NCBI GenBank assembly: GCA_030373505.1
Contig: JAUCYS010000001.1
Span: forward strand, 370,864 to 434,863
DNA length: 64,000 nucleotides
Source of the DNA: Parasphingorhabdus sp.
GTDB taxonomy: Bacteria; Pseudomonadota; Alphaproteobacteria; Sphingomonadales; Sphingomonadaceae
Direction: 5' to 3'
The position numbers and the translations under genes are program-made. The notes under the pieces were generated by a model. The model was not told where the DNA came from and ran no database searches. It was given only the letters and a program-made list of their open reading frames with translations. Below, one piece after another: positions 58,307 to 64,000 of this stretch. How positions within the stretch are numbered: position 1 is the first letter of the stretch; the number at the start of each line of letters is the position of its first letter.

Positions 58307-58335
58307 GCGACAGATTTTTGACAGATATATTACAG
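58307..58335 (-). promoter_or_regulatory. Triple Pho-box-like repeat (reverse orientation)
   Basis: Reverse complement reads CTGTAAT-ATAT-CTGTCAA-AAAT-CTGTCGC, exact 11-nt spacing, upstream of the TPR gene. Confidence 0.5.
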
Positions 58336-58396
58336 TTTTGTTGCAATGATTGTCATATAAGTGTAATAAATGACGATCGAACTAGGAGAAGCTGTC

Positions 58397-58777
58397 ATGA
58401 AAACCGCTAAAATTATCGGAATCACGGCCGGATTGATGTTGATGGGGGCACCTGCCCTCGCTCAGGATTCGGGCGAAATTGGTTATGCAAAAGGTGCTCT
58501 GGGCTATGATGCTCTGGTCGCCGGTCAAAATGAAGTTGCTTTGCAGCAACTGGAGGCGGCGGAAAAGGTCGATGCGAATGATCCTGCCCGTCTCATCAAT
58601 CTGGGCCAGGTCTATGCAAGAATGGGCCGGACCGGAGACGCAGCGCGCATGTTCATGGCTGCCATGCAAGGCGATCGCCATTTTGACTTGCTGCTTGCCA
58701 ATGGCGAGGTGGTCGATTCCCGGGATGCCGCCGATCAGGCCTTGCAGAAGCTGAACAGTCAGTTTGCCGGTCGGTAA
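58397..58777 (+). CDS. Small periplasmic TPR protein
   Basis: Signal peptide MKTAKIIGITAGLMLMGAPALAQ, TPR-like NDPARLINLGQVYARMGRTGDAARMFMAAMQ. Confidence 0.75.
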   Translation: MKTAKIIGITAGLMLMGAPALAQDSGEIGYAKGALGYDALVAGQNEVALQQLEAAEKVDANDPARLINLGQVYARMGRTGDAARMFMAAMQGDRHFDLLLANGEVVDSRDAADQALQKLNSQFAGR

Positions 58778-58827
58778 ACTGGCGAATCATTGAGGGCAGA
58801 TTTTCCTGCTCCATGTATAATGTGCAG

Positions 58828-58856
58828 GGCGGCCGGTTATGCGGCCGCCTTTTTTT
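58828..58856 (+). terminator. Rho-independent terminator
   Basis: GGCGGCCG-GTTATG-CGGCCGCC followed by TTTTTTT. Confidence 0.92.
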
Positions 58857-58935
58857 GTGCATTTCGATCACAGTTCGGACCGTACCGCAGCATAATTCAA
58901 GCTTATCTGCCACTGCGGAGATGAGTGCAAAATAT

Positions 58936-58964
58936 CCGTCATAATTTTGTCTCCAAAGAGTCAT
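58936..58964 (+). promoter_or_regulatory. Pho-box-like triple repeat upstream of lipoprotein gene
   Basis: CCGTCAT-AATT-TTGTCTC-CAAA-GAGTCAT, exact 11-nt spacing. Confidence 0.4.
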
Positions 58965-59092
58965 GCAAACAGCATGGCAGGGTCACGCGCCATCCCTAGA
59001 GCCCTTCGCTGAGGGCGATGGGGGCTTTTGATTCGATTCCGCATCGTTTGATTTTAATGTTTCAAACCAGTTATTTTGCGGAGACCAATTCC

Positions 59093-60640
59093 ATGTTGAA
59101 TAAGCAAATCCGATCTGTCCTGTTCGCGAGTGTGGCTGCCCTGGCGGTGACGGCTTGCGGCGCCGACGATGTCGCATCGCCGGGCGAAGGCAATCTTGTC
59201 GTATTGCCGACGCCGGCACCGACACCGGCACCTACGCCCACACCGACTCCAACGCCAGGGTCGGGTCCGGCAGCAAGCTGTCCCACTGGAACGGCCAATG
59301 TTGGTACGATCACCACGGGCAATGGGGAAGAGGTTCGCAACTGCCAGATTTCCGGTATCATCACGGGTAATCTGCTGGTGCCGAAAAAAGCTGGCACGAT
59401 TTACTCTTTCTCCGGTGAGGTCGATGTGGGGATTGATGGCGGCGCAACCGGCATCATCACTTTCGAGCCTGGTGTGACCGTGTTCGGTTCGTCCGGTGGC
59501 GACTTCTTGCTGGTCAATCGCGGCTCGCAGATTTTTGCTGAAGGCAACGCCTCTGCGCCGATCATCTTCACTTCGCGCCAGAATATTCTGGGAACCACTA
59601 CCGCAGACAGCATTGGCCAGTGGGGCGGCGTGGTCATTCTCGGCCGGGCACCAATCTCCAACTGCGCAACCGGAGACGTTTCCAATCCGGGCGGCACGCG
59701 CACCGATTGCGAAGCGATTATCGAAGGTCCGGCCAATGCCGTTTACGGCGGCACTCTGCCAAATGATTCATCGGGTCGCCTGTCCTATCTGCAAATTCGC
59801 TATCCCGGTTTCGAAGTCTCGACCGGCAACGAATTGAATGGCATCAGCCTCGGTGGCGTCGGTCGTGGCACCTTCTTCCAGAATATTCAGGTCCATAACA
59901 GTTCGGACGACGCGGTTGAATGGTTTGGTGGCCGGGTCAACGGCAAGAATCTGGCCTTTACCGGTACTGACGATGATTCGGTCGATTCCGATGTTGGCTA
60001 CAAGGGTTTCAACCAGTTCGTTCTGGCGGTGCAGCGCGTCAATGGCGGGGACCACAACTGGGAAGCAGACTCCAATGGCGACGAAGATGCTCAGCCACGG
60101 CAGAATTACGCTATGGCAAACGGCACTCTGGTCTCCCGCGGCGGCAACACGACGATCCTGATGCGTGGCGGTGGCGACTATGAAATGTACAACAGTGTCA
60201 TCTCGAGCGCATCTGGAGCCAACAAATGCCTGGATATGGATGGCAGCGCTACGGTGCAGGCTGCGAATCCGGCGCTGGATGAAAAAGGCCCGCCAGTATT
60301 CCAGTCGGTGTTCATGTCCTGCTCGGGCGGAGCGTTCGTTGACGACGGCAATGTAACCGTCGCGGCGATCCAGACCATCTTTAACGCAGGCACCAACAAC
60401 ACGTCGGCGGGTACTTCGACACTTGCTTCGAGCGCCTGGCCGATTGCCTTCATCAACGGGGCGAACGAAAATGCTGTGACGCCGTTCAATGCTGCAACTG
60501 TGGCATCCTCGTTCCAGTTCGGAGACTATGAAGCGGTTAATTATATCGGTGCCGTAAAGGACGCGAATGACACGCGCTTCCAAGGCTGGACCTGCGGTCT
60601 CTACGCCAATGATTGTGCCATCGCTCCCACGATTGGTTAA
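59093..60640 (+). CDS. Surface/secreted lipoprotein with PT linker (TonB-receptor-associated)
   Basis: ATG 59093; lipobox LAVTAC, TPAPTPAPTPTPTPTPG linker, large extracellular-type domain. Confidence 0.75.
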   Translation: MLNKQIRSVLFASVAALAVTACGADDVASPGEGNLVVLPTPAPTPAPTPTPTPTPGSGPAASCPTGTANVGTITTGNGEEVRNCQISGIITGNLLVPKKAGTIYSFSGEVDVGIDGGATGIITFEPGVTVFGSSGGDFLLVNRGSQIFAEGNASAPIIFTSRQNILGTTTADSIGQWGGVVILGRAPISNCATGDVSNPGGTRTDCEAIIEGPANAVYGGTLPNDSSGRLSYLQIRYPGFEVSTGNELNGISLGGVGRGTFFQNIQVHNSSDDAVEWFGGRVNGKNLAFTGTDDDSVDSDVGYKGFNQFVLAVQRVNGGDHNWEADSNGDEDAQPRQNYAMANGTLVSRGGNTTILMRGGGDYEMYNSVISSASGANKCLDMDGSATVQAANPALDEKGPPVFQSVFMSCSGGAFVDDGNVTVAAIQTIFNAGTNNTSAGTSTLASSAWPIAFINGANENAVTPFNAATVASSFQFGDYEAVNYIGAVKDANDTRFQGWTCGLYANDCAIAPTIG

Positions 60641-60657
60641 CCCTGAACCAAGACACT

Positions 60658-60693
60658 GGGATGGTGGCCCTCGGCGGTCGCCATCCCATTTTT
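60658..60693 (+). terminator. Imperfect hairpin plus T-tract between lipoprotein and TonB receptor genes
   Basis: GGGATGGTGGCC...GGTCGCCATCCCATTTTT. Confidence 0.65.
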
Positions 60694-60700
60694 ACACTAT

Positions 60701-63418
60701 ATGAAGGACATTCGGATGACCAAGCGGACATCGATAATCGCCGGCCTGCTGCTGAGTTCTGCACTCATTTCTCCTGCTGCCCATGCGCAATCCGCTCCCG
60801 GCGAAGAGCCGGCGGCAGAGCCCACATCCTCGGACGACGAGCCTACGGGTGAAGACGTCGATGTTTCGGCTCCGGGCGGAGAATTCAGCGGCGAGATTAT
60901 CGTCAGGGGCAAATATATTCCCAATCCGGTGCGTGCGACCGGCGAAGTGGTCTCGGTTCTGGGGGAAGCGGAAATCGCCCGTACTGCCGATGGCGACATT
61001 GCCGGTTCGCTGCAGCGAGTCACCGGCCTCAGCGTCGTCGGCGGCCGTTTTGTCTTTGTCCGCGGTCTTGGCGAACGTTATTCGCTCGCTTTGCTGAACG
61101 GCCTGCCGCTACCTTCACCGGAGCCGCTCCGCCGCGTTGTTCCGCTGGACCTGTTCCCGACCAGCGTCATCGCCTCAACGGTTGTCCAGAAAAGTTACTC
61201 GGTCAACTATCCTGGCGAATTTGGCGGCGGGGTGATCAACCTGACGACCAAGTCGACTCCGGACGAGCCGTTTCTCAAGATCAATTTCGGGGTTAGCGGC
61301 GATAGCGAAACCACCGGCAAGCTCGGTTATACCTATGACGGTTCTGACGGCGATATCATCGGCTTCGATTCCGGCGTGCGCGATATCCCTGCCGGGTTGG
61401 CCAAGGCGCTGGCCCAGAATGTCCCCATTTCCGTTGGTACGACCTTCACCAGCGAGGACCTGCAGAATTTTGCTGCGAGTCTGAACAACGCTGAAACCAA
61501 CCTGATCCAGCGCAACAATGACATACCGGCCAATTTCTCGGCCGATATATCGGCTGGCAAGACTTTCGATGTCGGCGATGCTTATGTCGGGGTGGTGGCG
61601 ACAGCCGGATATGACAACAGCTGGCGCACCCGCGGCGGCGTCCAGCAGACTTCGCAGGGCATTGTCACCGTCGACGGTGAACCGGGACTGCTGCCGGACC
61701 AGAACTTCCGCTTTGTGACGACGGAAAATCGTATCGTGATCAACGGTCTGCTTGGACTTTCGGCAGAGGTGGGTGAACACAAGTTCCGTTTCACCAATCT
61801 CTATATCCACGACACGTCGAAGGAAGCTTCGATCAAGGCCGGCATCGATTCGATCAACGTCAGCGATGACACATTGCTCAACCAGGGACGGACCAGCTGG
61901 TTCGAGCGCCAGTTGTTCACGTCACAGTTTGTCGGTGAGTTCAAATTTGACGAACTGAGCATCGACGTCCGCGGCAGCTATGCCAATTCCAAGCGCGACG
62001 CGCCCTATGAGCGGACTTATGGCTATGCCTATGACGACATCATTGCGCAGGATTATGTCAACAACCTGACCTCGCCGGGGCAATCGGCCCGAATCCGGTT
62101 CAGTGACCTCAATGACGATGTCTATGGCGCGGGTGCGGATATTTCCTACGAGACCGATCTTGGGGTTCCAACCATCTTTTCGGCCGGTTACAGCTATTAC
62201 AAGAATGACCGCTTTGCGCAGCGGCGCGATTTCCGCTTCGTGCCGGTAGGCAATATTCCCAATCCGATCGATCAGGAGCGGATCGATTTCCTGCTTTCCG
62301 ACTATAATGTCTATACTTACGGTCTGGAACTGCGCGAAGTGGCTTCACAGGCTTCGGTTCCCGCCTATTCAGCAACGCTCGAAGTCAATGCTGGCTATGT
62401 ATCGGTGGAAGCCGAGCTTACCGATGGTCTGCGCGCCAATCTGGGCGTCCGCTATGAGGATGCAAAGCAGCAGGTAACTCCGATCTCGCTGGTCGGCGGC
62501 ACGCCTGGCGTTGGCACGGGGCTGAACAATGACTATTGGTTGCCGGCTGGCACGCTGACCTGGAATTTCGCGGAAGACATGCAATTCCGGCTGGCGGCTT
62601 CAAAAACCATCGCTCGTCCGCAATTTCGCGAACTGGCGCCGCAACAGTTCCTAGATCTCGAATCAGATCGTACCTTTGTCGGTAATCCCTTGCTGACAGA
62701 CAGTGAGTTGTTCAATGTGGAAGGCCGCTACGAATATTATATCGGTCGTGGCGAACGCATCACATTGGCCGGTTTTTACAAGAAAATCGACAATCCGATC
62801 GAAAATGTTGCCTTCGTTCAGGGCGGTGGAACGCTGTTTACCGGATTCTCCAATGCTCCCACTGCGACCTTGTACGGAGCGGAAGTAGAACTGGTGAAAT
62901 ATCTGCCTCTCAATGATCTGGGTGGCGATTTTTTCCAGGACCGGCGCCTGATGCTGGCCGCAAACTATACCTACACGAAGTCGAAGATCAAAGTGGATGC
63001 CAGCGACATGTCGATCAACCCGATCACGCTGACTCCCGTAGCCTCGTCCAACCTGTTTGACGATGGTGATCGGCTGACCGGCCAGTCGACCCATGTCGGC
63101 AATTTCCAGTTCGGTATGGAGCGCGAGGATGGTCCCGTGTCCCAGCAGACGATCCTGCTGACCTATAACAGCCCGCGTGTGACGGCTCGTGGTCCTCAGG
63201 GACAACCGGACCTGATCGAGCGGACGGGCTGGAAACTGGATGTGGTGCTGCGCGAGGAAATGAACATTGCCGGCCAGGATTTCGAGCTGAAGTTCGAAGC
63301 CCGCAACCTGCTGGGTACCGATTACAAGGAGTCGCAAACTCTTGGGGCGACCGAGATTTTGAACAATGCCTATGATATCGGCACGCGTTTCTCGATGAGC
63401 ATAGGACTGAATTTCTAG
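60701..63418 (+). CDS. TonB-dependent receptor
   Basis: 905 aa; signal peptide, plug GLSVVGGRFVFVRGLGERYSLALLNGLPLPSPEPLRRVVPLDLFPTSVIASTVVQKSYSVNYPGEFGGGVINL, C-terminal GTRFSMSIGLNF. Confidence 0.93.
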   Translation: MKDIRMTKRTSIIAGLLLSSALISPAAHAQSAPGEEPAAEPTSSDDEPTGEDVDVSAPGGEFSGEIIVRGKYIPNPVRATGEVVSVLGEAEIARTADGDIAGSLQRVTGLSVVGGRFVFVRGLGERYSLALLNGLPLPSPEPLRRVVPLDLFPTSVIASTVVQKSYSVNYPGEFGGGVINLTTKSTPDEPFLKINFGVSGDSETTGKLGYTYDGSDGDIIGFDSGVRDIPAGLAKALAQNVPISVGTTFTSEDLQNFAASLNNAETNLIQRNNDIPANFSADISAGKTFDVGDAYVGVVATAGYDNSWRTRGGVQQTSQGIVTVDGEPGLLPDQNFRFVTTENRIVINGLLGLSAEVGEHKFRFTNLYIHDTSKEASIKAGIDSINVSDDTLLNQGRTSWFERQLFTSQFVGEFKFDELSIDVRGSYANSKRDAPYERTYGYAYDDIIAQDYVNNLTSPGQSARIRFSDLNDDVYGAGADISYETDLGVPTIFSAGYSYYKNDRFAQRRDFRFVPVGNIPNPIDQERIDFLLSDYNVYTYGLELREVASQASVPAYSATLEVNAGYVSVEAELTDGLRANLGVRYEDAKQQVTPISLVGGTPGVGTGLNNDYWLPAGTLTWNFAEDMQFRLAASKTIARPQFRELAPQQFLDLESDRTFVGNPLLTDSELFNVEGRYEYYIGRGERITLAGFYKKIDNPIENVAFVQGGGTLFTGFSNAPTATLYGAEVELVKYLPLNDLGGDFFQDRRLMLAANYTYTKSKIKVDASDMSINPITLTPVASSNLFDDGDRLTGQSTHVGNFQFGMEREDGPVSQQTILLTYNSPRVTARGPQGQPDLIERTGWKLDVVLREEMNIAGQDFELKFEARNLLGTDYKESQTLGATEILNNAYDIGTRFSMSIGLNF

Positions 63419-63426
63419 GCCAGGAT

Positions 63427-63444
63427 CTGTCATCTATCTGTCAA
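63427..63444 (+). promoter_or_regulatory. Near-consensus Pho box upstream of gspE
   Basis: CTGTCAT-CTAT-CTGTCAA (consensus CTGTCAT-N4-CTGTCAY), plus GCGTCAC in phase at 63460. Confidence 0.6.
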
Positions 63445-63594
63445 ATAGGAGTCGTCGTAGCGTCACATTATTTTCCTATCCCGTCAGCTGGATAACAGCG
63501 GGAAGATAATCGTGATGCACGGCGGGTTTCCCGAGACTCTGGTCTCGTGTCGGCCAACTTCAGACAGACAACGGGTCGGCGGGAGCCAGAACAT

Positions 63595-64000
63595 ATGACA
63601 GTGAATCAGGGCGATTTCCCCGTGGATGACGGCATCGCCGATGGTGGAAGGCTTCTTTCTCCTTCGCCCCTGCTCGATCTTCCCTACGGCTATTCCCGGG
63701 ACCACGGGATTTTGCTGCGTTCGATGGACGGCGAGCGGGCTTCGATTGCGATGCGGGCGGGTGCGGACCCTTCTGCATTGCTGGAGGTTCGTCGTTATCT
63801 GGCGCTGCCCTTTGATGTGGAACTGGTCGACGGCCCGGCGTTCGAGAGACTGCTGAGCGATCATTATGCGATGGACGGCTCGGCGGCGGCCATGGCGGGT
63901 GATATGGCGCTGGCGGGCGAGGGGCTGGATGATATTGCGGGCGACATCCCGAGCGCAGAAGATCTGCTCGACAGCGCCGATGATGCGCCGACCATAAGAC
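63595..64000 (+). CDS. gspE: Type II secretion ATPase GspE, N-terminal part, truncated by window end
   Basis: Manual translation MTVNQGDFPVDDGIADGGRLLSPSPLLDLPYGYSRDHGILL...LALPFDVELVDGPAFERLLSDHY...AEDLLDSADDAPTIR, open to the end; not in the supplied ORF track. Confidence 0.8.
   Translation, partial: MTVNQGDFPVDDGIADGGRLLSPSPLLDLPYGYSRDHGILLRSMDGERASIAMRAGADPSALLEVRRYLALPFDVELVDGPAFERLLSDHYAMDGSAAAMAGDMALAGEGLDDIAGDIPSAEDLLDSADDAPTIR

Follow-up and report, generated by a model that had tools for sequence, protein, structure and literature searches.

Pho-box-like arrays at a probable sphingomonad counterpart of the Caulobacter ElpS phosphate-starvation module

Introduction

At the right-hand end of the 64,000-nucleotide stretch of Parasphingorhabdus DNA that was analysed (the window), genes for a small TPR protein, a lipoprotein, a TonB-dependent receptor (TBDR) and the type II secretion system (T2SS) ATPase GspE follow each other on the plus strand. 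Are these genes controlled by phosphate starvation through PhoB, and if so, which of them? A preliminary description of the sequence had noted Pho-box-like 11-nt repeats preceding gspE and the genes for the TPR protein and the lipoprotein, and had proposed that the TPR, lipoprotein, TBDR and T2SS genes form a phosphate-starvation module. There is a precedent in Caulobacter, where the lipoprotein ElpS (cc0170) is made or induced under phosphate starvation, the TBDR gene cc0171 is reported to be constitutive and gsp transcripts rise only 1.7-fold (PMC2996285), and where the T2SS belongs to the PhoB regulon (PMC11208175). A layout similar to that of Caulobacter is found in Sphingomonas alaskensis, Hyphomonas neptunium and Xanthomonas campestris (PMC2996285). 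Our literature search, which covered open-licence papers, found no sphingomonad study of this module.

From the sequence evidence presented below we conclude that the locus is very probably the form which the ElpS/TBDR/T2SS phosphate-starvation module of Caulobacter takes in sphingomonads, and that it is probably under PhoB control. The module is known in kind; what is new are the located arrays, a TPR gene with a reversed array and a solitary gspE.

Results

Three arrays of 11-nt repeats stand out in the window

The features of the locus, with the evidence for each where it is specific, are as follows.

58307..58346, minus strand: four-unit Pho-box-like array 5' of the TPR gene, TTGCAAC-CTGTAAT-CTGTCAA-CTGTCGC in 11-nt steps (best four-unit score of the window)
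58341..58369, plus strand: proposed sigma-70-like core promoter for the TPR gene, TTGCAA, 17 nt, TAATAA (inferred; TTGCA and TAA(T/C)A conserved)
58350..58367, plus strand: TTGTCAT-ATAA-GTGTAAT, a Pho-like pair in forward orientation, lying at the spacer and -10 of the promoter proposed for the TPR gene (highest-scoring two-unit site of the window)
58397..58777, plus strand: small TPR protein, 126 aa, signal-peptide-like N terminus (weak TPR_11 match)
58826..58851, plus strand: terminator-like hairpin 3' of the TPR gene (hairpin scan)
58936..58986, plus strand: five-unit Pho array 5' of the lipoprotein gene, CCGTCAT-TTGTCTC-GAGTCAT-ACAGCAT-GGGTCAC (matrix, conservation)
58997..59002, plus strand: -10-like hexamer TAGAGC, 10 nt after the last unit of the lipoprotein array (as at the organism's own pstS, CCTAGA)
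59093..60640, plus strand: ElpS-like lipoprotein, 515 aa, lipobox Cys22, predicted right-handed beta-helix (relatives, structure model)
60657..60688, plus strand: terminator-like hairpin with a T-run between the lipoprotein and TBDR genes (-25.1 kcal/mol, z -2.0)
60716..63418, plus strand: TonB-dependent receptor, nearest NCBIfam model TonB-Xanth-Caul (below its cut-off)
63427..63466, plus strand: four-unit Pho array 5' of gspE, CTGTCAT-CTGTCAA-GAGTCGT-GCGTCAC (matrix, conservation)
63477..63482, plus strand: -10-like hexamer TATCCC, 10 nt after the last unit of the gspE array (TATAGC in most relatives)
63595..64000, plus strand: 5' part of the solitary gspE (T2SS ATPase); the contig ends inside the gene

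The three repeat strings that the preliminary description had listed, beginning at 58307, 58936 and 63427, are all found at those positions. The matrix scan that it had proposed as a check was run with a seven-column unit matrix trained only on pstS promoters of other congeneric species (22 promoters, 15 distinct units), with arrays of two, three and four units scored and eight shuffled windows serving as controls. The three sites take the top three ranks of the window, with best four-unit scores of 23.7 for 58307 (minus strand), 22.2 for 63427 (plus) and 16.6 for 58925/58936 (plus), all of them above the maximum of 13.6 reached in any shuffled window. The repeats with 11-nt steps were correctly recognised, but the arrays run further than was described, to four, five and four units at the TPR gene, the lipoprotein gene and gspE, respectively, and the forward pair at 58350-58367 had been missed. 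Units start at 58936, 58947, 58958, 58969 and 58980 in the lipoprotein array and at 63427, 63438, 63449 and 63460 in the gspE array.

Could the repeats have arisen by chance, given a loose consensus and AT-rich intergenic sequence? When pairs are counted against CTGTCAT-N4-CTGTCAT, the 63427 pair has 1 mismatch of 14, the 58318 pair (minus strand) has 2 and the 58936 pair has 4, and pairs at 1, 2 and 4 mismatches are expected about 0.05, 0.3 and 33 times per shuffled window. The 58936 pair alone is therefore not significant, and this is the point that speaks for chance. Against it, the whole arrays exceed all shuffles and keep their position in relatives, and the box of the lipoprotein gene keeps its sense orientation in distant genera. 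A chance origin is rejected on these grounds for the 63427 and 58307 arrays, and for the 58936 array only if one takes the complete array together with its conservation; as an account of the locus we regard chance as extremely improbable.

The strict Pho-box pattern CTGTMAYN4CTGTMA has three matches in the whole 3.13 Mb genome, two of them in this 5 kb, and the control has 0. Across 33 congeneric genomes the strict pattern matches 28 times versus 5 times for the reversed control, and 25 of these 28 matches lie at either the module (13) or pst genes (12), one of the latter being on a short contig with a PhoR-like gene in front. Direct repeats resembling CTGTCAT and spaced by 11 nt occur at the locus at least in pairs and beyond what chance would give, with the unit variants CTGTAAT and GAGTCGY being common.

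The arrays are conserved in position and orientation

Orthologous loci came from some 30 congeners and from a number of relatives further away. Because the 29-31 congeners do not count as independent samples, two further tests were added, namely the strict pattern described above and a set of distant loci. At the pstS-trained threshold the array between the TBDR and gsp genes passes on the sense strand in 29/29 congeners and on the other strand in 0. The lipoprotein array passes on the sense strand in 16/31 congeners with three units and in 19/31 with four, again with 0 on the other strand. By comparison, 0-2 of 290 random coding windows pass, and 0/290 do so with four-unit arrays. The distant test covered 76 loci of other genera (Sphingomonadales, Caulobacterales and some Xanthomonadales) and took the best-matching box no further than 300 nt from the lipoprotein gene; a box with at most 3 mismatches is present in sense orientation at 34/76 loci (0.85 expected) and on the other strand at 1 (0.65 expected).

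The same motif is present at the organism's own pst genes

The genome encodes PhoB, PhoR, Pst and PhoU in the gene order phoR-[array]-pstS-pstC-pstA-pstB-phoU-phoB. PhoB matches TIGR02154 at 349 bits, above the cut-off; PhoR, at 298 bits, is below its cut-off but stands in the phoR-pst-phoU-phoB gene order. The array of the organism's own pstS carries the same motif and ends 10 nt before the -10-like hexamer CCTAGA, the same spacing as that observed at the lipoprotein gene and gspE. These two genes share with PhoB-dependent pstS-type promoters an arrangement where tandem 11-nt units near CTGTMAY take the place of the -35 element and, in sense orientation, end 10 nt before the -10. The locus differs from such promoters in that the variant units CTGTAAT and GAGTCGY are common, and in the reversed array at the TPR gene. 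In all, there are two pstS-type genes in this genome, each with a Pho array (G000:C4, L284, and G000:C19, L001), and both contigs also carry phoU.

OmpR-family regulators commonly bind 10-11 nt direct repeats, so the arrays might be read by a response regulator of this family other than PhoB, and units such as GAGTCGT and TTGCAAC do deviate from the Escherichia coli consensus. However, the same units, N4 spacers and -10 spacing occur at pstS of the same genome and of its congeners, and in Caulobacter the counterpart belongs to the PhoB regulon (PMC11208175). We consider another regulator unlikely, with only a small chance of being correct, and favor PhoB.

The lipoprotein and the comparison with Caulobacter

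As at Caulobacter elpS-cc0171-T2SS, a locus under phosphate-starvation/PhoB control, the order here is lipoprotein, TBDR and then gsp gene, with the ElpS-like lipoprotein gene adjoining the TBDR gene on the same strand. The likeness of the lipoprotein to ElpS rests on its relatives in Caulobacteraceae (found in Brevundimonas, Phenylobacterium and Asticcacaulis) and on the published layout, not on an alignment with ElpS. Its structure model (pLDDT 69, pTM 0.74) has a fold that matches beta-helices. The sequence has no match in Pfam or NCBIfam and no relative by sequence in the PDB, and the fold search returned general beta-helix matches only, at low TM-scores, and no function. A TPTPTP-rich linker lies between the lipobox cysteine and the predicted beta-helix. 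In other families of the order a lipoprotein-like sequence occurs twice in adjacent stretches (L067, L069, L070 and L071 in G046, G054, G057 and G040).

The locus differs from that of Caulobacter in several respects: there is an extra TPR gene in front, explicit Pho-box-like arrays have been located, and the only gsp gene after the TBDR gene in this sub-lineage is a solitary gspE, with the T2SS operon being elsewhere. From sequence, the proposal of a phosphate-starvation module is supported for the lipoprotein gene and gspE, whose arrays have promoter-like geometry, are conserved in relatives and have the Caulobacter precedent, but it does not extend to the TBDR gene, which lacks a box. Specifically, a Pho array in the gap between the lipoprotein and TBDR genes passes the pstS-trained threshold in 0/30 relatives, the gap holds the hairpin with a T-run, and cc0171 is reported to be constitutive (PMC2996285). 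Because this hairpin stands between the two genes, coupling of the TBDR to the lipoprotein is probably no more than partial.

The reversed array at the TPR gene

Convincing matches to the TPR protein are limited to genomes that also hold the lipoprotein gene. Its upstream array, correctly flagged in the preliminary description as reversed relative to the gene, is a four-unit array on the minus strand that passes the threshold in 24/28 congeners with three units and in 21/28 with four; a forward three-unit array passes in 11/28 relatives. The reversed array overlaps the -35 of the proposed core promoter and faces the forward pair in the spacer. The TPR gene thus lacks the sense-orientation array ending about 10 nt before a -10 that characterises the other two sites.

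It is slightly more probable than the opposite that the TPR-side repeats are not a site of PhoB activation but a TPR core promoter with an operator, where either PhoB acts as a repressor or another regulator binds. The sequences TTGCA and TAA(T/C)A are conserved in relatives at about the same spacing (~17 nt), the reversed array covers the -35, and no -10 stands at the canonical distance after the forward pair at 58350-58367. Furthermore, the left neighbor varies between species while the array stays, indicating that the array belongs to the TPR gene and does not serve a divergent gene. On the other side, the TPR-side units match the pstS matrix best in the window, making PhoB binding likely from sequence, and reversed sites could still activate at a distance. 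This reading concerns one of three sites and is compatible with PhoB activation at the other two. A simple promoter scan did not list the proposed core promoter at 58341..58369.

A divergent leftward gene was rejected as the general target of the reversed array, with pcm/tRNA-Cys being located there in a few species only, and no conserved leftward -10 was seen at this array among relatives. In G036 the TPR gene and the lipoprotein gene diverge, with an array between them that is directed toward the latter; as a guess, such an arrangement may be the origin of the reversed orientation at the TPR gene.

A solitary gspE and a separate T2SS operon

The "T2SS genes" of the preliminary description turn out to be one solitary gspE, with a complete T2SS operon, including its own gspE and Pho array, located elsewhere. 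Clade I congeners (e.g. G017 and G015) share the order TPR-lipoprotein-TBDR-array with this locus, and there the array is followed by a gspC-D-E-F-G...L-M operon. In the clade of this genome the array is instead followed by gspE alone, the next genes in G011 and G025 being those for tryptophan 2,3-dioxygenase and kynureninase, and the T2SS operon with its own gspE is elsewhere in the genome. An array of the same design precedes gspC of the operon, except that it was not recognised in G023 and is different in G014.

In this genome contigs C10 and C2 carry the T2SS operon, and the solitary gspE is on C28 and probably continues on C16, judging from gene content (C16 starts with a gspE 3' end, and the gene for tryptophan 2,3-dioxygenase comes next). 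Each of the four contig ends lies within gspE, leaving the middles of both copies unread in this genome, as expected if these middles are near identical. One of these ends is the end of the window at 64000, which is that of C28; the assembly break there probably results from the second gspE copy.

In G025 (L268, L061) the identity between the two gspE copies is 99-100% along most of the gene and 72-78% at both ends, and patches of 95-99% identity between copies are found in G011 (L267, L042), G016 and G003. In a tree of the gspE 5' part, solitary and operon copies form separate groups (93 and 82% SH-aLRT), whereas a tree of the core pairs both copies within G025 and within G011 (99%). These near-identical cores, diverged ends and concordant trees indicate partial gene conversion between the copies. 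Loci L269, L062, L270 and L063 also belong to this pattern of partial gspE conversion.

Two accounts of the solitary gspE were weighed. It could plausibly, at somewhat below even probability, be a decaying relic of a relocated T2SS operon, with the Pho array as inherited baggage. The solitary copy is diverging or broken in G013, G029, G030, G014 and G023; G023 holds a stop, only a partial match remains in G014, and the copies in G013, G029 and G030 are only 62-64% identical to the operon copy. Yet the solitary gene is open in G011, G025, G016, G003, G026 and G001, its identity to the operon copy is 85-95% in the five open-copy genomes that have a full operon copy to compare, conversion tracts of 95-100% occur in four of these five comparisons, and the array is intact in all 29 congeners. 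More tentatively still, and in our view rather doubtful, the solitary gspE may have split from the T2SS operon and been kept at the old site under its own PhoB-type promoter, homogenised by conversion, as a phosphate-inducible booster of secretion-ATPase dose.

Discussion

In the proposed mechanism, low phosphate would cause PhoR to phosphorylate PhoB, both of which are encoded in the genome, and phosphorylated PhoB would bind the tandem 11-nt arrays 5' of the lipoprotein gene and gspE, substituting for a -35 element and recruiting RNA polymerase to the -10 that begins 10 nt downstream of each array. The surface lipoprotein would then be induced under low phosphate, and the TBDR would be expressed by read-through and/or from a basal promoter of its own. 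The separate gspC-M operon and the solitary gspE, which both carry an array, would be co-induced, and secretion capacity would rise. With regard to the TPR gene, where the reversed array lies over the core promoter, PhoB would more likely be a modulator or repressor than a classical activator. Given the 1.7-fold rise of gsp transcripts and the constitutive cc0171 in Caulobacter (PMC2996285), induction here may be modest and selective.

On sequence evidence, these results carry the ElpS/T2SS phosphate-starvation response of Caulobacter over to sphingomonads, together with located promoters, and they yield a usable Pho-box model for this group. The presence of a T2SS operon and a lone gspE at separate sites under similar Pho arrays is a natural rewiring, and it offers a way to ask if type II secretion under phosphate stress is limited by the supply of its ATPase.

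Finally, the third strict Pho-box match of the genome is at L117 (G000:C20:39495-39512, minus strand). It lies ~100 nt 5' of a small lipoprotein gene that is followed by a gene for a HupE/UreJ-looking membrane protein, with a TBDR-like gene being divergent, and from its sequence this site is a possible further Pho target.
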